Shown here: piece by piece, positions 38,343 to 52,752 of the stretch | Layout of the letters: each line of letters starts with the position of its first letter | Numbering within the stretch: the stretch's first letter is position 1 | Source: a virus | Reading direction: 5' to 3' (one strand) | Virus record (IMG/VR): IMGVR_UViG_3300046506_000327 | Coordinates: 1 to 64,000 of that record | DNA: 64,000 bases | Made by a program: the position numbers and the translations under genes | Notes under the pieces: model-generated | Database searches by the model: none | What the model saw: only the letters and a program-made list of their open reading frames with translations | Told to the model about the DNA's origin: nothing

Positions 38343-38609
38343 ATGGACGCATCCGGTAAGGCCACCACCGACCTCTACGACCGCAAGATCGAGGGCCCCT
38401 TCTCGGCCCTCTGCGGCGGCGGCCAGGACAACGACGGCAACATGGAGGACTGCATCGAGATCGCCCCCCTCGTCGGCGGCGGCTACGCCGTCGGTGACAC
38501 CAAGCTCCAGGGCGACTCGCCGCAGCTGCGCTTCTCCGAGGCCGAGCTGACCAAGTTCGCCCGTGGCTGGCTCGCCAAGAACGACGACGCCCCGAACGCC
38601 ACCGCCTGA
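38343..38609 (+). CDS. DUF397-like small protein, 88 aa
   Basis: ATG at 38343 after CAGGAGGACAGCA. Residues 20-80 resemble a DUF397 domain: ALCGGGQDNDG, EDCIEIAPLVGGGYAVGDTK, QLRFSEAELTKFARGWL. The N-terminal MDASGKATTDLYDRKIEG and the tail NDDAPNATA are extra. Followed by a 15-bp hairpin and a JmjC/cupin gene. May be a partner of a regulator or a substrate of the oxygenase. Preceded by boxes shared with the XRE regulator's operators. Confidence 0.7.
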   Translation: MDASGKATTDLYDRKIEGPFSALCGGGQDNDGNMEDCIEIAPLVGGGYAVGDTKLQGDSPQLRFSEAELTKFARGWLAKNDDAPNATA

Positions 38610-38627
38610 CGCTCCACCCGGCATGAC

Positions 38628-38663
38628 GGGGCACCCGCGCCCGACGGCGGGCGCGGGTGCCCC
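38628..38663 (+). terminator. 15-bp hairpin between DUF397-like and JmjC genes
   Basis: GGGGCACCCGCGCCC / GGGCGCGGGTGCCCC with a 6-nt loop, no T tract. Could cause partial termination or protect the 3' end, giving more of the small upstream protein. Confidence 0.65.
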
Positions 38664-38704
38664 TCCCGCACCTCTACCGCAGCCACTCCGACAGGAGACG
38701 CCCA

Positions 38705-39601
38705 ATGCCTCTCTCCGACCTGGTGGAAGATGTACCCGACCTCCTGGCCGCCTGGCCCGCCAAGCCTCGCGTCCACCACCACGACCCCAGCGCCTTCCGC
38801 GACCTGCTCACCCTCAACGAGGCCAACGACCTGATCGACAGCGAGTGCATCCCCGCGCACAACGTCGTCCTCGTCGCGCCCGACGGCACCCTCGTCGACC
38901 GCCGCTCCTTCGTCGCGGGCGACATGCCCCACCCCGGCACCCTGCGAGCCCACCTCGACAACGGCGGCACCGTCTCCCTGCGCAAGCTGGAGAACATGCG
39001 CCCGCCCCTGTCCCGCCTGCGGGCCGACATCCAGGCCGAAACGGGCTGCCGCACCCACATCAACGCCTACATGACCCCACCCGGCTGCCAGGGCTTCCGC
39101 TACCACTACGACCCCTACGTCACCCTCATCGTCCAGCTTGCCGGACGCAAGACATGGCCGGTACACGAGCCGTTCGTCGAGAACCCCGTACGCGAATGGG
39201 GCAACTTCATCACCCGAGGCTTCACCAACGAAGAGCACCACTTCCTCGCCAACACGCCTCCGGCCGCCAGCTATACCCTCGCCCCCGGCGACGTGCTCTG
39301 GCTGCCTCGGGCCTACGTGCACTCCCCCTACACCGAGGGCGACGAGACGTCCCTGCACCTGACCTTCGCCCTGGCCGCGCGCACCTTCCACTGGCTGGCG
39401 CAGCAGATGGTCGACGAGGCTCTCGCCCACGCCCTGGCGGACCCTGCCCTGCGCGAGGAAATCACCCCCTCCAGCCTGCTGGCCGACCCGGCCCCGGCGA
39501 TGGACCGCATGCGCGAGTACCTCGTCGGCGCGCTGCATCTGGTGACGACGGACGACGAAATGTTGCCCATTGTCCGCAACGCAGTCCTGGCGACGGACTA
39601 G
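38705..39601 (+). CDS. JmjC/cupin Fe(II)-2-oxoglutarate oxygenase-like protein, 298 aa
   Basis: ATG at 38705 after CAGGAGACGCCC. Cupin/JmjC iron site: His134-x-Asp136 (RYHYDPY) and His206 (RAYVHSPY). A Lys at 149 (GRKTW) could bind 2-oxoglutarate. Relatives (YcfD/RoxA, cupin_4) hydroxylate protein side chains, often in ribosomal proteins; others modify peptides. C-terminal helical domain (FHWLAQQMVDEALAHALADP) is typical for dimerisation. Substrate unknown, the upstream DUF397-like protein being the obvious candidate. Confidence 0.8.
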   Translation: MPLSDLVEDVPDLLAAWPAKPRVHHHDPSAFRDLLTLNEANDLIDSECIPAHNVVLVAPDGTLVDRRSFVAGDMPHPGTLRAHLDNGGTVSLRKLENMRPPLSRLRADIQAETGCRTHINAYMTPPGCQGFRYHYDPYVTLIVQLAGRKTWPVHEPFVENPVREWGNFITRGFTNEEHHFLANTPPAASYTLAPGDVLWLPRAYVHSPYTEGDETSLHLTFALAARTFHWLAQQMVDEALAHALADPALREEITPSSLLADPAPAMDRMREYLVGALHLVTTDDEMLPIVRNAVLATD

Positions 39602-45207: not shown

Positions 45208-47112
45208 CTAGAGCGTGGTGGGTGTGCTGGGGCGGAGGCCGAGGCGAGCGGCGTGGCGGGCCGTCCCGACAAAGGTGACCACCTCGGTCGCTTCCCAGCC
45301 GACTGCGGGCAGTTGCGGCATGAACCGCTTGTGCCGGTCGACGTATTGCAGCGTCATATGGGCCGTCCAGCCGTGCTCACTGGGAAGGCGGTACCCGTAT
45401 CGCTCCAGGTAGTCGGCCAGACTGACGTGCATCTGTACCCCGCCAGGTATATCGGGGTGAGCCCACAGGACGTGCTGGTCTTTGTAGGCGTTGTTGAACG
45501 TGCCAACGCCTCCGATGTGGATCGTAACTGCCTTTTGCCGCATTGCCCAGGCCGAAACCAGTTGGGGCAGCAATGCCAGCTGCTCCTTGGTGTAGTCGGC
45601 CGCATTGCCCAGGTACGCCAGAGTGATATGCAGGTCATCGACCAATTGCCCGCCGTGCAGGGCGAGTTGCTCGGCCACCTCGGGCGGTGGAACGAACGCA
45701 ACCATCACGCCATCGCCGTTCGCAACGGCAGCCGCCTGCCGCTGCAGCAGGCGCTCCTCGGCCTCGGTCAGTTGCAGGGAGGCGGTGTGATGCGTCGGCT
45801 CGGTCCACTCCTCGTCGGGACCGTGGACGGCAGGATGCTCGATATGAGGGCCGTTGTAGCCCCACTCGTTGATGTCGTTGCCGTCGGTGTGGACGTGCTT
45901 GGCCGGGACGGTGGCCTTGAGGACCGGCCAGTCTTTCGAGGGGTCGTCTGGATGCATGCCGTGCTCGCGGGCGTACTGGGAAGACGTGCTGACCCAGTCT
46001 CCGGTGCGGATGTGGCTGACACCGTGTGGGACTGAGCGGTAGATGGTCACTGGGGTGTCCGGCTTCCCCTTGGTCCGGTGGACGGCCGCCAGGGATTCCT
46101 CGTGGGGCTCCCCAATGCTGCCCCAGTCGGGGTTGTCGAGGTCCTCCTGATTGAAGGCGCCCCCCTCCCCGCTGGGGTGGGTCGGATCGTGTAGCGGAGC
46201 ATTGTGAGGGCCTGGAGCCCGGTGCATCATCTTGCCGTCGTCGTCCACGGAAGCAGTCTGCTGCAGGTTTGCCGTCCGGAAGAAGTCCGTCAGGCCGGAC
46301 AGGCGCTTCTGGGCGGCCTCGTAGTTGTGGGGGCCGATGTGGCCGATGAACAGCCGGTGCGCGCTCTCGGGCGAGGTGGGGTTGCCGTCGGCGTCCTCGA
46401 AGCGGTGGGTGACGCGGTGCAGGAAGTCGGCGCGGGACGAGCGCCAGCCGCCGTTCTCCCACTGCCCTCCGTTGAGGGCGTGGTCGTACTTGTGCTGCTC
46501 GCCGCGTGCGAGGCGGTCGATGGTGTTGAGGGTCTTCTCCTGGACCTCGGGGTGGAGGCCGTCGAAGTCCTTCTCTGCGCCCTTGTGGAACTCCACCGGC
46601 AGGGAGCCGCCCTCGTGGCTGGCGCCCAGGCGCTGCTCGGCGTCGGCGACGTTGTGTCCGGCGTAGCCGACGTGGAGGGTCTTAGTGTCGGGGTCGGTGC
46701 GGTGGACGACCTGGTGGCCGCCGGAGGTGATGGCGGCGTGCCAGCCCTCCAGCGGGTGGGAGAGCGGGTAGCTGGTCACGCCGGAGCGGCCGTGCTGCAG
46801 GGCGGTGATGGTGTCCTGCACGTGGCGGGCGCCGCCTCCGAGGCGGTCGAGGTCGCCCTGCAGCTCCGGGTGGCGCTCTACTTCTGCTGCTGCGCGGACA
46901 CGGCGGCCCGGTGCCGCAGCTCGTTCAGGCTGACCGGGCTGCGGTCGCTGGCCGTCTCGTGCCGGTGCAGCAGCTCGGCCTCGATATCCGGCGCGATCAG
47001 CTCCGGGGTGGTCGGCAGCTCGTCCTGCGGCAGGGTCGTTTCGTGCATGGTCCCCTCCATGGGAGGCATCGTACGCGCCACGGAAGTGGGCGACGGCGTT
47101 GAACTCGGTCAT
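45208..47112 (-). CDS. Polyvalent protein: YoeB-like + ADP-ribosyltransferase + 2H phosphoesterase, 634 aa
   Basis: Residues 172-265 resemble a YoeB/RelE-type toxin (VEFHKGAEKDFDGL ... GGWRSSRADFLHRVTHRFED ... IGHIGPHNY). Residues 350-420 have the R-S-E ADP-ribosyltransferase pattern (TIYRS, STSS, NDINEWGY). Residues 468-600 are a 2H phosphoesterase/RNA ligase with two H-x-T motifs (LHITLAY, AHMTLQY). The N-terminal MTEFNAVAHFRGAY resembles that of the next protein. Residues 24-80 look out of frame and overlap a separate ORF; a GTG at 46821 is an alternative start (537 aa). Placed after the terminase. Confidence 0.7.
   Translation of the reverse strand: MTEFNAVAHFRGAYDASHGGDHARNDPAAGRAADHPGADRAGYRGRAAAPARDGQRPQPGQPERAAAPGRRVRAAAEVERHPELQGDLDRLGGGARHVQDTITALQHGRSGVTSYPLSHPLEGWHAAITSGGHQVVHRTDPDTKTLHVGYAGHNVADAEQRLGASHEGGSLPVEFHKGAEKDFDGLHPEVQEKTLNTIDRLARGEQHKYDHALNGGQWENGGWRSSRADFLHRVTHRFEDADGNPTSPESAHRLFIGHIGPHNYEAAQKRLSGLTDFFRTANLQQTASVDDDGKMMHRAPGPHNAPLHDPTHPSGEGGAFNQEDLDNPDWGSIGEPHEESLAAVHRTKGKPDTPVTIYRSVPHGVSHIRTGDWVSTSSQYAREHGMHPDDPSKDWPVLKATVPAKHVHTDGNDINEWGYNGPHIEHPAVHGPDEEWTEPTHHTASLQLTEAEERLLQRQAAAVANGDGVMVAFVPPPEVAEQLALHGGQLVDDLHITLAYLGNAADYTKEQLALLPQLVSAWAMRQKAVTIHIGGVGTFNNAYKDQHVLWAHPDIPGGVQMHVSLADYLERYGYRLPSEHGWTAHMTLQYVDRHKRFMPQLPAVGWEATEVVTFVGTARHAARLGLRPSTPTTL
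46878..47048 (-). CDS. Nested 56-aa ORF, possible gene or frameshift remnant
   Basis: ATG at 47048 after GGAGGGGACC. Encodes a helical acidic protein starting MHETTLPQDELPTTPELIAP and ending in AQQQK. Its third-position GC is high, unlike the overlapping frame of 45208-47112 here. Joining the frames would give a continuous protein (AQQQ then VERHPELQ), so either it is an independent gene or the region carries two compensating frameshifts. Confidence 0.5.
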   Translation of the reverse strand: MHETTLPQDELPTTPELIAPDIEAELLHRHETASDRSPVSLNELRHRAAVSAQQQK

Positions 47113-50100
47113 GCTGCGGTCTCCAGGTCCGTGGCGGCGGTCCCGTCGTGGGCGTGTTTCCAGTCGATGAGCTGCTGCAGCGGCTTGCCCGGGGCCTTGT
47201 CGAGGGCCTTCCAGGTCGCGTTCGCAGGATCGTAGAGGCCCGACCCCTCGGGGCCGAAAGCGCTGTGGCGGTCAGCGTGGAGGTAATCGTACAGCGCGGC
47301 GCCCTCGCGCTCGCGGACTTCGTCGGGCAGCTCGGCGATGGCCTTGATGAGCTTCTGCAGGGCGTCGAAGACGTCCCAGGTGGACTCGGGCAGCTTCTCG
47401 GGGCCGAAGTCGTCGGGGACCTCGACCGGCTCGACGGCCCACTCGTCGCGGGTGATGTCGTAGGCGGCATAGGGCTTGAGTGCCTTGATGTCGTACGAGC
47501 CCGGGTTGACGTACCAGGTGGATTCCCAGGGACCGGTCTCTTTGCCGTCCGGGCCGGGGAGCATGCGGGCGTCGTCGTTCAGGCCCTCGCGCAGCTCGTC
47601 GGTGAGCTTGGCGTCGACTGCATCATCGGGCTCGCCGGTGAAGTGGTCGACGTGGTAGTTGAGGGCCTCGTGGTCGACGCCGATGAGGATGTCGAGGTCG
47701 TTGTTGCCATACCAGTGGGAGGCCTCGGAGCCGGTGAGGTAGACGCGGGCCCAGGACTGCCAGGAGTCGCCGTACTTCGGTGTCCAGAAGCTGTTGAGCA
47801 GGCTCAGGAGGTGCTGGCGGACGATGGGGTGCATGCGGCGCTGCTCGTCGAACAGGCGCGGGTCCAGGCCCTTCTCCCCCGGCGCGAAGAAGTGGTCGCG
47901 GGGCAGCCATTCGTGGTGGTGCTTGTAGGGCTGGGTGTTGTCGGGGACCGGGGTAGCGCCGTGGCCGCCGTCGGTCAGTCGGCCATCGCAGGCGGCATCA
48001 TCCGGGCTGTTGGCGGGGACGGTGCGGCCACCGTCGCAGTGGTAGCACTCGAAGCCGGTGTCGTGCTCGCCGGTGCCGCCGCAGCAGGGGCACGGCTTGG
48101 TCGCGGCGGCCTGGCGGCGGATGGGCTCGCCGTGGACCTCGACGGCGTCGCCGGTGCCGGTGCGCCACTCGTGCTTGTCGCCGCCGGGGAAGCCCTGGGC
48201 GCCGGGCCGGGGGCGGAGGTGCAGGACAGCGAAGTTGGAGGGGTCCTTCTTGGCGAACGCCTCGCGATCGTTGGAGGTGAACAGGACCGACGGCTTGCCA
48301 TTGCCGGACCACTCGCGGGCTCGGGAGAACGCGCCGTACTCGTCGTGGCGTTCCTCGACGTTGGGGTCTCGTTCCCAGCCGGTGCCGACCTCTCGGCCGT
48401 CCTTGGTGACGCCGAAGTTCTTGTGGATGGTCGGGTGGGGGGTCCAGCCCTTTTCCTTGGCCTCGGTGTAGGTGGCGAAGCCGGGCTCCAGGCGCTTGCC
48501 GCGCCTCATGGAGTCCTGCGCGTATTCGTTGTGGCCGCCGGATACGCCGTGTTCGAACGCGTCGTGGAAGGGCTTCTCGGCGCCCTCGGCGTTCTGGGCT
48601 GCGCGGTGCAGGTCGGCGAAGGTGGTCTTGCCGTTGAGGTGGTCGTGGTATTCGTGCAGGGCGTCGAGCATGCTGTGGGCGTTGTCTTCGCGGTGGGTCA
48701 TGGACAGCCACTCAGGGGTGCCGCCCAGGCCGTGGCCGCGCCTCTGACCGAGTTCGTCGCCGCTCCTGAGGCCGTGGGCGGCGACCCCAGCGGCGTCGGT
48801 GGTGGTGTGGTACAGCTTCTGCGGCAGCGGCTGCCAGCCCTTGCCCTCCGAGTGCTGGCCAGTCCAGTCGTCCCGGGTGTCCTCGCGGGCGTCGCCGGTG
48901 TAGCCATGCTCGCGGGCCTGCATGTAGTCGAGGTGCCCGAGGGACAGGCCGCGCCGGACGCGGCTCTGGTGATCGGACCAGTCCTCGCCCTCCCCTCGCG
49001 CGAAGGACTCCGCCCCAGCGACCGTGGTGAGGGTAGCCATAGTCCGACCGCGCTGGACTCGCTTGCCGTCGGCGTAGCTCTTCCACCAGGCCTTGCCGTC
49101 GGGCGTGCGGTCGCCGTGATCTATAGGCGTGCCCGGGTGGCGGCGCTGCATTTCGTCCATGAGGGCGGAGCCGACGCCCTTGCGCTGGTGGTCCTCGTGA
49201 GTCTTCAGCTCATGGACAGTGATCTTGTTGTTTTTGCGGCGGGGCACCTGGTAGTCGAGGAAGCCCATTTCTTCGCCGGTCTCGGGGTGCAGGGCTTTGA
49301 GCTTGATCCTTGTCGGCCAGATCGAGCTGCCGGTGTCGGTCTCCTCGTGCTCAAAGTCGGGTGTGAGGGCGGCCTGCCGGGAGATGCTGTGGCGCTGCTC
49401 GATGCCTGCGCGGTCGGGGTGCCAGCGCAGCCAGTTCGTGGCGTCCTCGTGGCTCAGCTCGTGGGGCTTGACCCAACCGTCGCGCACAACGCCGTCGGTC
49501 ATGATGGCGTTGCTGTGGGCGTCGCTGTGCTCCTCGGGGGCGTCCCAGTCGACGTCGTCGAGGTCGTGGCCGGGGTAGTTGCTGTAGTGGTTGCCCGTTG
49601 CATGCTCGTGGGCGGCGACCGCGTGGGGGTCGGCGCCGTGCCACGGGGGCGGCATCTTGGCGTCACTGGCCGGGGCGTCGTGGTGGCCGTAGTCGATGTG
49701 GCCGTTGTTCTGGACCTCGGCGTGCTGGCCGACGGGGTGCCACTTCCAGTCGGGGTGGGTGCGCTCGGGGTGCATCGGGATGGGGTGCCCGTGGGGTTCG
49801 TCCTGGCCGTGCCAGACGTAGGCGCCGTCGATGTGGACGTGGCTGCCGGGCTTGAGGCGGACTTCGGCCTCGTGGTCCATGGAGCGCGTGCGTCCGTCCC
49901 AGGACGGGTGGGAGCGGGGGATGGTCTGTGCGGCCGGGTCATCGACGCGGCCCTGCCAGAACATGCGGCGCTGGCCCTGGCCCGGGGGCGGGGTGAAGGC
50001 GGAGTCGGGGTTGACGCTCCAGTGCAGGCCGACGCCGGAGTGCTGCAGGGCGTCGTGGGGTGCGCCCTCGCGGGCCTCTCCGCGCCAGATGGTGGTACCC

Positions 50101-50255
50101 GGGACGGGGTTCTTGGCCAGCTGCAGGGCGCGGTGTCGGTGCTCAATGAAGTCCGGGTGGCCGAGGGCGTCCTCCTGCTCTGGCGGGAGCTGGGGGCGCG
50201 GCGAAATCTCGCCTGCAGCCCGCTGGAAGAAGCCGATCGCGCTGATGTCCGTCAT
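47109..50255 (-). CDS. Polyvalent protein: ART-like + GNAT + ART-like + zinc + nucleotidyltransferase, 1048 aa
   Basis: Residues 50-140: ADP-ribosyltransferase-like (TTIWRGE, GLHWSVNP, DHEAEVRL). Residues 312-395: GNAT acetyltransferase (HELKTHEDHQRKGVGSALMD). Residues 478-710: second ART-like domain (KLYHTTTDAAGVAAHGLRSG, EWLSMTHRED). Residues 722-743: DnaJ-like zinc module (CPCCGGTG, CYHCDGG). Residues 805-960: polymerase-beta-type nucleotidyltransferase (TGSEASHWYGNNDLDILIGV, Gly-Ser plus Asp-x-Asp). Phages pack or inject such 'polyvalent' proteins to disarm the host (Iyer, Aravind). Downstream of the terminase after a hairpin. Confidence 0.75.
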   Translation of the reverse strand: MTDISAIGFFQRAAGEISPRPQLPPEQEDALGHPDFIEHRHRALQLAKNPVPGTTIWRGEAREGAPHDALQHSGVGLHWSVNPDSAFTPPPGQGQRRMFWQGRVDDPAAQTIPRSHPSWDGRTRSMDHEAEVRLKPGSHVHIDGAYVWHGQDEPHGHPIPMHPERTHPDWKWHPVGQHAEVQNNGHIDYGHHDAPASDAKMPPPWHGADPHAVAAHEHATGNHYSNYPGHDLDDVDWDAPEEHSDAHSNAIMTDGVVRDGWVKPHELSHEDATNWLRWHPDRAGIEQRHSISRQAALTPDFEHEETDTGSSIWPTRIKLKALHPETGEEMGFLDYQVPRRKNNKITVHELKTHEDHQRKGVGSALMDEMQRRHPGTPIDHGDRTPDGKAWWKSYADGKRVQRGRTMATLTTVAGAESFARGEGEDWSDHQSRVRRGLSLGHLDYMQAREHGYTGDAREDTRDDWTGQHSEGKGWQPLPQKLYHTTTDAAGVAAHGLRSGDELGQRRGHGLGGTPEWLSMTHREDNAHSMLDALHEYHDHLNGKTTFADLHRAAQNAEGAEKPFHDAFEHGVSGGHNEYAQDSMRRGKRLEPGFATYTEAKEKGWTPHPTIHKNFGVTKDGREVGTGWERDPNVEERHDEYGAFSRAREWSGNGKPSVLFTSNDREAFAKKDPSNFAVLHLRPRPGAQGFPGGDKHEWRTGTGDAVEVHGEPIRRQAAATKPCPCCGGTGEHDTGFECYHCDGGRTVPANSPDDAACDGRLTDGGHGATPVPDNTQPYKHHHEWLPRDHFFAPGEKGLDPRLFDEQRRMHPIVRQHLLSLLNSFWTPKYGDSWQSWARVYLTGSEASHWYGNNDLDILIGVDHEALNYHVDHFTGEPDDAVDAKLTDELREGLNDDARMLPGPDGKETGPWESTWYVNPGSYDIKALKPYAAYDITRDEWAVEPVEVPDDFGPEKLPESTWDVFDALQKLIKAIAELPDEVREREGAALYDYLHADRHSAFGPEGSGLYDPANATWKALDKAPGKPLQQLIDWKHAHDGTAATDLETAA

Positions 50256-50550: not shown

Positions 50551-52752
50551 TCAGCGGCGATATCCGGACCTTGTGCGACCGAGACCTTGATCCCAGCCCT
50601 GGCGTCCGGTACGGGTGCGCGTGAAGGATCGCAGAGCGTCCAGGCGGCCCTGCATGTCCTGGTCAGGCATGGCCAGGTCAGGGGTGCGGGCGCTGGATCC
50701 GTGCAGGCCGCCCATCATGGCGCCAGTGGGCATGGCGCCGTTGAGCATCTCCTTGTAGCCCTCGATCCAGTCGCCGATGAGGGCGAAGGTTGTGATCATG
50801 ATCGCATCGGCGATGTCCTTGGTCTGGACGGGGCCGATGGTGGGGTGATCGACGCGGTTAATGCCGGGCTTCTTCTGGAGGAACTTCAGCTCCAGCATGC
50901 CCTCTTCGTGCTCGGGCGCGTGGACGAGGCCCATGTTGATCGCGGCCTTGAAGGTCTCGGCGTAGCGCCAGTTGAGCTGGTTGGTGGCTGTGCGCTCCCA
51001 GATGTTGACCTTCTTGGGCAGGCGCGTTCTGGCGGTCCGCTTGACGAGTGACTGGATGGATCCGACCGACTGGTACTGGTCGAAGGTGAAGTCCTCGGGG
51101 GCGAAGGGGACGATCATGTCGTCCCAGATCCAGTCCTCGACCTCCTCGTAGTCGATGGTGTGGCCAGGAAAGTCGGCCGGATCGAAGTAGTGGATCTTGT
51201 CGAAGACGACGTGGGGGCGCCCCTCGGCGTCGATCTCTGTATGGGCGAGGGCGACGCCGAAGCGGCAGTTGACGGAGCTGGGGTCGGCGTGGCCCTTGTA
51301 CGTGTAGGCAAGGATGCCCTGGGTGGTGGGCAGGATGAGCGGGCTACCGTAATCGGCGGGGCGCTCGTGCCACGGACCGAAGACGGATTCGACCTTGTCC
51401 GGATTGAGGTAGGCGTCCAGGACGGTGGCCCACTGGGCTCGGCGCTCGACGGCGAAAGTGTCGGGGTCGGCCTTCTCCAGTTTGCGCATCTCTTCGTCGA
51501 AGTTCTGGATGGCGCCCTTGAGGGGCTTGAAGCCGGGCGGGTCGCAGTCGACGTACTCGCCGTTGTCGCCGGTGAATCCCTCGGGGAAGAGGGGCAGCTC
51601 GTGGGCGATCTGCCAGTCGAGGTAGACGTCCCAGCTGGGGAGCTGGATCATCATGACGTTCGCGTAGGTGGGGGTGCCGTCGTCCTCGTAGCTGGTGGCG
51701 CGCAGCCAGTTGTCGTAGAACTTGCCGCTCATCTCCCATGGCGAGCTGGGCTCGACGATGAAGCCGTCCTTGCCGAACTGGTCGAGGGAGGGGGTGGAGG
51801 CGTCGTAGACCTCTCCGGCGGAGCGGTTGGCGCCTGAGTTGACGACGTGGGCCATCTCGTCGAAGCCGAGGATCATGGAGGCGGGGCCACGGCCTGCCAT
51901 GACGGTGGATTCCTTGGGCAGGATGTGGAAGGTGGCCATGTCCATGGCGGTCTTGATGCCGCGCTTGCGCATGTCTTCCATGCGGATGAAGTCGTTCGGC
52001 GCGTAGACGGAGAGCTTCTCGCCGAGGCTGTCGGCGATGTACGGGGCGAAGCACGGGCCGCCGGTAACGACGTTGACGAGGTCGCGCCACAGGTTCTGCT
52101 TGGCCTGGTCGCGCTTACCGGCGAAGATCAGCACGGCGAGCTTCTTGTCGCGGTCGACGCCGTAGAACTCCTGGGGGTCGCCCTTGGCCATGTAGCACCA
52201 CAGGACGTAGGCCATGGCCAGGGCGCTGATGTGGCCCTTGCCTGCGCGGCGGCCCATGACCAGGAGGATCTCTTTGAACCAGCTGTAGCCGAGGGCCTTG
52301 CAGGCGCGCATGCGGCCCAGGAGGTCCGGGGAGCCGGACAGGGGCATCTTGGGGGCGTCCTCGTTGCCTTCCAGCAGGGCCTGGGCGGCGATGGCGTCGA
52401 GGGCCTCGGTCATGATGCCGTCGACCTCGGCTGCGAGGGCGTCTTCGGGGCTGGTCTCGGCGAGTTCGGCGGCGCGGGCGGCGCGCTGTTCGTTGGAGGA
52501 CTTGGCGGTGCGGTAGGACTCGTCCCACTCGGCGACGACCCGGTAGTCGTAGTCCGTGAAGAGGTCTTCACGCAGGAAGAAGACCTTCAGGAGAGTGGCC
52601 TGCCTCGGGTAGAGGTTCGGCCGGTTCAGGTACCTCTGCGAGACCACGAACGTAATCGGGTCGGGGACCTCCAGGCCCAGGAACAGCTGGTGGATCTCCG
52701 TCGGATCGAAGTTCGCCAGGGGCGAGTTGTCCTCGTTGTTCTTGCTGGTCAT
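50551..52752 (-). CDS. Terminase large subunit, 733 aa
   Basis: Walker A GRRAGKGH (residues 167-174), Walker B ILGFDEMAH (294-302) with the catalytic Glu, and a C-terminal nuclease part (GVALAHTEIDAEGRPHVVFD, EDWIWDDMIVPFAPEDFTFD ... KDIADAIMITTFALIG) with the Asp residues of an RNase-H-like fold. Cuts and packages phage DNA into the capsid. Preceded by tandem ACCGTTA repeats and a divergent promoter region. Longer than usual (about 550), mostly at the N-terminus. Confidence 0.9.
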   Translation of the reverse strand: MTSKNNEDNSPLANFDPTEIHQLFLGLEVPDPITFVVSQRYLNRPNLYPRQATLLKVFFLREDLFTDYDYRVVAEWDESYRTAKSSNEQRAARAAELAETSPEDALAAEVDGIMTEALDAIAAQALLEGNEDAPKMPLSGSPDLLGRMRACKALGYSWFKEILLVMGRRAGKGHISALAMAYVLWCYMAKGDPQEFYGVDRDKKLAVLIFAGKRDQAKQNLWRDLVNVVTGGPCFAPYIADSLGEKLSVYAPNDFIRMEDMRKRGIKTAMDMATFHILPKESTVMAGRGPASMILGFDEMAHVVNSGANRSAGEVYDASTPSLDQFGKDGFIVEPSSPWEMSGKFYDNWLRATSYEDDGTPTYANVMMIQLPSWDVYLDWQIAHELPLFPEGFTGDNGEYVDCDPPGFKPLKGAIQNFDEEMRKLEKADPDTFAVERRAQWATVLDAYLNPDKVESVFGPWHERPADYGSPLILPTTQGILAYTYKGHADPSSVNCRFGVALAHTEIDAEGRPHVVFDKIHYFDPADFPGHTIDYEEVEDWIWDDMIVPFAPEDFTFDQYQSVGSIQSLVKRTARTRLPKKVNIWERTATNQLNWRYAETFKAAINMGLVHAPEHEEGMLELKFLQKKPGINRVDHPTIGPVQTKDIADAIMITTFALIGDWIEGYKEMLNGAMPTGAMMGGLHGSSARTPDLAMPDQDMQGRLDALRSFTRTRTGRQGWDQGLGRTRSGYRR

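Follow-up and report, generated by a model that had tools for sequence, protein, structure and literature searches.

The window analysed here, a 64,000-nucleotide stretch within a 79.7-kb virus record (IMG/VR IMGVR_UViG_3300046506_000327), carries at 45208-47112 on the minus strand a single open frame of 634 codons, uninterrupted by stops, the product of which comprises an N-terminal tag, an overprinted linker, two tandem RelE/YoeB-like domains (RelE#1 and RelE#2), an ADP-ribosyltransferase (ART)-like domain and a C-terminal 2H phosphoesterase. The gene encodes a multi-domain protein of a Streptomyces phage that carries RelE/YoeB-like toxin modules. Its start is overlapped by ATGA with the adjacent gene (47109-50255, minus strand), which encodes a second polyvalent protein of 1048 residues with the same N-terminal motif. 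The gene for the terminase large subunit (50551-52752, minus strand; PHROG 2, E = 3.2e-12) is close by, which places the polyvalent genes in the head/packaging region of the phage. Elsewhere in the window, the plus strand encodes at 38343-39601 a protein of the DUF397 family (Pfam E = 4e-6) and, after it, one resembling JmjC_2 oxygenases (Pfam E = 1.3e-19).

Relatives of the big protein were found in IMG/VR at loci L002-L011, L031 and L037, with L002 and L003 being identical to the window over its length. Locus L008 corresponds to a finished plasmid, pRLB1-9.1 (NZ_CP041653.1, 154,158 bp), from Streptomyces sp. RLB1-9; because it encodes an HK97 major capsid protein together with baseplate and ParA genes, it is a phage-plasmid. 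The proteins combine at least two enzymatic domains of the conflict repertoire, shuffled among L004-L011, L031 and L037, as is characteristic of polyvalent proteins. The same phage-plasmid encodes, upstream of its major capsid gene (L048, 19588-23064), a 1158-residue protein in which a head maturation protease is joined to a PHROG 3842 domain and to a segment resembling ParB, i.e. a third fusion of the polyvalent type. Downstream of its polyvalent genes, near an integrase, there is a pair annotated as an ATP-grasp-modified RiPP precursor, tgmA, and an MvdC/MvdD-family ATP-grasp gene (L040, 19660-20830; NZ_CP041653.1, 69862-71032).

The original prediction that the N terminus of the big protein resembles that of its neighbor holds across the relatives, in which both adjacent proteins open with one short motif (MTDISATSFFRQA in the neighbor, MTEFNAVAHFRQA in the big protein; in the window, MTEFNAVAHFRGAY at 47071-47112, minus strand), and it extends to the domain junctions, where FFRQA-type variants (TATAFFRQA, TDFFRTA) recur in both polyvalent proteins of the window, L004-L011, L031 and L037. 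Among the approximately 95 annotated proteins of pRLB1-9.1 covered by the scan, the motif is N-terminal in only the two polyvalent proteins. The pRLB1-9.1 genome also encodes a head maturation protease. Possible roles of the motif are as a packaging tag, as a protease site or as a recombination-friendly linker for domain shuffling.

The two RelE/YoeB-like domains span residues 78-165 (46618-46881, minus strand) and 172-274 (46291-46599, minus strand). Their top profile matches, although each weak singly, are all of one kind, i.e. RelK/YoeB in the PDB, ParE_toxin in Pfam, CARF_RelE in PADLOC, and YafQ; comparison with free actinobacterial RelE toxins gave an hhalign value of 93.9% (E = 1.5e-7). 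The assignment of both tandem domains to the RelE/YoeB (BECR) sequence type is supported by these profiles, consistent with the YoeB/RelE-like segment of the original prediction, which, however, had overlooked the second copy. One RelE copy is present in L007, L009 and L011, and two in tandem in proteins of the window type. RelE#1 shares 42% identity with the L007 RelE, and judged by profile RelE#2 is the ortholog of the single RelE of L007, L009 and L011 (hhalign 99.6%, E = 3.5e-24).

With respect to the active site, we take the catalytic residues of Escherichia coli YoeB to be R65, H83 and Y84. RelE#2 keeps H211, R233, H262 and Y264, of which R233, H262 and Y264 were mapped by eye onto E. 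coli YoeB, whereas in RelE#1, by the same by-eye mapping, every aligned row shows Gln in place of the Arg, and the Tyr position is taken by Val/Ile. RelE#2 is therefore predicted to be the likelier active copy. Neither the overlap nor the first 40 codons of RelE in L008 and L011 contain an ATG, GTG or TTG in frame 0, implying that their RelE would be translated only within the big protein. Production of a free toxin by reinitiation at the stop codon of the nested frame described below was considered and rejected, as there is no conserved start codon. No stand-alone relative of the RelE domain was found in the phages collection, a search of plasmids yielded only pRLB1-9.1 itself, and viral scans with RelE and antitoxin queries returned no loci outside this phage group.

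The ART-like domain (residues 281-425; 45838-46272, minus strand) matches PHROG 2579 (E = 6.5e-35) and has an R-S-E pattern, R359, S377 and E416, that is invariant in 14 relatives. PHROG 2579 bears the name 'ParB C-terminal domain', as do phage annotations; despite this name, no ParB match was found for the window protein, the matched part of which has the invariant R-S-E pattern. The proposal of an R-S-E ADP-ribosyltransferase in the original prediction is borne out as to these residues, but not by Pfam, where the domain has no match, nor by a PDB profile search, which gave chance hits only. The conserved residues are consistent with an ART assignment. A scan of genome contigs returned ART-like relatives only, mostly in Bacteroidales and Fibrobacteria.

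For the C-terminal domain (residues 461-634; 45211-45732, minus strand), the predicted 2H phosphoesterase with both H-x-T motifs is confirmed by a match above cut-off to Pfam 2_5_RNA_ligase2 (E = 5.6e-11) and by the motifs H495-I-T497 and H585-M-T587, which are invariant in nine relatives. The match to TIGR02258 (E = 2.8e-10) is below the NCBIfam cut-off, and that to PDB 1vdx has an E value of 2.5e-7. The closest solved relatives are RNA 2',3'-cyclic phosphodiesterases; no anti-CBASS or anti-Thoeris enzyme is among the Pfam, NCBIfam and PDB profile matches, so that the role against these defences raised in the original prediction gains no support from them and is not contradicted either. The domain resembles ThpR/LigT RNA 2',3'-cyclic phosphodiesterases in its 2H family membership by Pfam and PDB profiles and in having both HxT motifs, but differs in falling below the NCBIfam equivalog cut-off and in being fused into a polyvalent protein as its last domain. 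Iyer et al. (PMC5512222) suggest that 2H domains of polyvalent proteins act as RNases or degrade nucleotide signals.

The main feature of the big gene is that residues ~22-77 are overprinted by a conserved nested ORF of 56 codons in the +1 frame (MHETTLPQDELPTTPELIAPDIEAELLHRHETASDRSPVSLNELRHRAAVSAQQQK; 46878-47048, minus strand), which starts at an ATG (47048), is preceded by the Shine-Dalgarno (SD) sequence GGAGGGG (47052-47058, minus strand) and ends with a TAG (46878) exactly at the first RelE domain. At this junction (46878-46881, minus strand) the sequence is GTAG, so that the nested stop overlaps the frame-0 codon GTA (Val) with which RelE#1 begins. The original prediction had treated the toxin as a lone effector and had not recognized the antitoxin-like gene that precedes it in another frame. 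The third-position GC (GC3) coding signal lies in frame 0 over most of the big gene and in the +1 frame over residues ~16-86; in its own frame, the nested ORF of the window has GC contents of 0.75/0.43/0.96 by codon position. The flip of frame over the nested ORF is present in all nine distinct sequences, i.e. the window, L004, L005 (= L010), L006, L008, L037, L007, L009 and L011, with a nested-frame GC3 of 0.88-0.98 and log-likelihood ratios (LLR) of 40-58. It is the sole strong internal flip within the polyvalent genes scanned by GC content at each codon position, there being no flip above an LLR of 11 in the adjacent polyvalent genes, including that at 47109-50255. A frameshift or assembly error as its source was rejected, since nine distinct sequences share the arrangement and one of them is a finished plasmid (NZ_CP041653.1).

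In this GC-rich DNA, 62% of the 50-codon windows taken from ordinary phage genes are open in the corresponding frame, so that the openness of frame 0 is weak evidence by itself; three further lines of evidence are translation signals, protein-level conservation and co-occurrence with RelE. The nested ORF is kept with its SD, ATG and TAG in the nine distinct sequences, with lengths of 41-56 residues; the peptide of pRLB1-9.1 begins MDPNEQDETMDPEVEAEILQ, and L007, L009 and L011 have the same nested arrangement, their peptides having diverged further. An SD match of 4-7 nucleotides precedes the nested ATG in 9/9 sequences, and in seven of these it is at least 6 nucleotides long; among 28 control out-of-frame internal ATGs, matches of at least 5 nucleotides occur in two and of at least 6 in none. 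Substitutions in the overlap, when counted by nested-frame codon position (44/43/45), show no third-position bias, and because such counts are uninformative we used a permutation test on 3'-anchored, ungapped comparisons. In this test, the protein similarity in the nested frame has a z value of 3.7, with none of 1000 permutations reaching the observed value, compared with -1.6 for the frame of the big gene, 0.6 for the third frame and 3.6 for the RelE#1 coding frame, which served as a positive control. Pairwise tests based on alignments agree (p ≤0.05 for most of 36 pairs), with these alignments being optimized in the nested frame.

The presence of the nested ORF follows that of the toxin, in that it lies directly upstream of the complete RelE domains in 9/9 sequences and is absent from L031, in which RelE is cut to a C-terminal remnant. 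The RefSeq annotation of pRLB1-9.1 has a single CDS here and no nested gene. The SD, the conservation in the nested frame and the co-occurrence with RelE lead us to predict that the nested ORF is a gene.

As to what this gene encodes, the nested peptide of L011, when compared with plasmid sequences, matched the C terminus of a Phd/YefM antitoxin on an Arthrobacter plasmid with an E value of 4, which is at chance level alone and convincing only by its context, i.e. an antitoxin beside relE, the gene following the matched antitoxin encoding a RelE/ParE toxin (a Phd-RelE operon). In the alignment of the L011 nested tail with the free antitoxin, NSGETPIPWEKVQQDLGL is opposite DTGEGPVPWEEVKAELGL. 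The nested peptides of L007, L009 and L011 scored z values of 5.4-10.6 over shuffles against the three closest free antitoxins, and a profile comparison of nested and free antitoxins aligned exactly the tail (E = 1.6e-4). The match is limited to this tail; an N-terminal DNA-binding/dimerization domain was not found in the nested ORFs. The nested peptide of the window itself had no significant match to free antitoxins in most comparisons; nested peptides of the window type resemble those of L007 and L009 (z = 2.3-5.7), and it is by this similarity, along with its position, that the window peptide is assigned as a candidate antitoxin.

The geometry of the junction points the same way. In five of five free-standing operons examined, the overlap of antitoxin stop and toxin start reads GTGA; at the corresponding four positions, nine of nine nested sequences have GTAG, with the relative frames being as in the free operons. 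The change from GTGA to GTAG implies that the frames of an ordinary operon have been retained, with the start codon of the toxin now being an internal GTA (Val) codon. Overall, the nested ORF looks like a candidate antitoxin matching the RelE toxin. The gene might instead be real but encode something else, e.g. a packaging chaperone or a regulator, a reading with which the lack of a credible match in Pfam, NCBIfam or PADLOC and the weak resemblance of the window peptide to free antitoxins would agree. We consider this unlikely, given the antitoxin-like tail in L007, L009 and L011, the tie between its presence or absence and that of the toxin, and the classical overlap geometry.

The loss of the N-terminal DNA-binding part of the antitoxin, and the tolerance of the overlap by the frame of the big gene, in which it reads as an open, Arg/Ala/Gly/Pro-rich linker in all nine distinct sequences, would also be compatible with an evolutionary scar, i.e. 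a decaying remnant of an absorbed antitoxin gene that is now useful as linker DNA only. Such decay is improbable, given that the nested ORF retains its SD, its ATG, its stop and its conservation at the protein level among relatives differing at ~10-50% of the overlap nucleotides, and that it is missing where RelE is broken (L031). Programmed frameshifting, by which ribosomes would enter the +1 frame and return, the big protein thereby including the nested stretch with no separate peptide being made, could account for a nested stop lying exactly at the switch to the RelE frame in 9/9 sequences, but is very improbable, as two shifts would be required, neither end has a conserved slippery heptamer, the nested ORF comes with an SD and ATG of its own, and frame 0 is open throughout.

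The results computed here, i.e. the nested ORF, its conservation and selection, its link to RelE, the overlap geometry and the similarity of the tail in three relatives, lead us to regard it as probable that a phage polyvalent gene has taken up a type II RelE/YoeB toxin-antitoxin module, with the antitoxin still being made off-frame and the toxin within a polyprotein. On the basis of these sequence comparisons, a polyvalent gene would have captured a Phd-RelE module, the fusion placing the toxin in the big frame. With its own start codon lost, the toxin, present in the window as two tandem copies, the second with its presumed active site intact, would be made solely as part of the large protein. 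The antitoxin, reduced to a toxin-binding tail minus its DNA-binding half, would be translated from its own site in the +1 frame, and the overlap region would be a mere linker in the big protein. In a phage-producing cell both would be expressed, and binding of the antitoxin would silence the toxin there, although its binding target in the window protein is not obvious because the adjoining RelE#1 has lost the presumed catalytic residues.

From the class of the protein, the position of its gene and the shared N-terminal motif, we infer that the large protein may then be packaged into the virion and injected. Arriving without fresh antitoxin, it would be toxic through cleavage of host mRNA at the ribosome, and the ART-like and 2H domains may have further targets in the host or modify RNA ends. 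RelE-type cleavage would leave 2',3'-cyclic phosphate ends, on which the C-terminal 2H enzyme could act. This wider proposal, in which a virion-delivered toxin and its immunity peptide occupy two frames of one gene, so that the off-frame antitoxin protects the producer while the packaged polyprotein necessarily departs without antitoxin and acts in the next host, we hold tentatively, judging its chances to be slightly short of even.

As in Phd/YefM-RelE/ParE (YoeB) type II operons, the antitoxin is directly upstream of a RelE-fold toxin in the same relative frames with a 4-nucleotide overlap, and three relatives have the tail (V/I)PWExVKxELGL. Unlike in those operons, the toxin, its start codon lost, forms an inner domain of a large protein rather than a protein of its own, and the candidate antitoxin lacks the DNA-binding half and lies inside the reading frame of another gene. 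The big protein is similar to the polyvalent proteins described by Iyer et al. (2017, PMC5512222), in the sections of that paper drawn on here, in being a large multi-domain phage protein encoded beside the terminase and in the shuffling of BECR-fold RNase, ART, 2H, GNAT, ParB, metallopeptidase and nucleotidyltransferase domains, several of which were recognized by eye in the present proteins. The polyvalent PBECR RNase families in those sections are distinct from the RelE/YoeB-like type present here, and the sections report no antitoxin gene nested in a polyvalent gene. Likewise, RelE/ParE multidomain toxins are described without a nested antitoxin in the portion of PMC11980606 consulted.

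A further parallel is with the Rpn genes, in which the antitoxin RpnS is the in-frame C terminus of its toxin (Zhong et al. 2023, PMC10327210) and which their authors call the first intragenic antitoxin known to them (PMC10327210). In both cases the antitoxin is, or in the present case would be, translated from a start inside the gene of the toxin; unlike RpnS, the candidate antitoxin is out of frame (+1), lies ahead of the toxin domain and is similar to a classical antitoxin. No case of an out-of-frame or nested antitoxin was found in the literature searched.

An open question for polyvalent proteins is how the phage can produce and package a toxic protein while the cell that serves as its factory stays alive. 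If the proposal is correct, an antitoxin overprinted on a linker would be a simple answer, since it would always be made together with the toxin, could not be lost without loss of the linker, and would be left behind at packaging. It would also represent an out-of-frame intragenic antitoxin, compared with the in-frame Rpn case characterized so far. Given that the RefSeq annotation of pRLB1-9.1 misses this one, further nested antitoxins may be hidden in similar genes.
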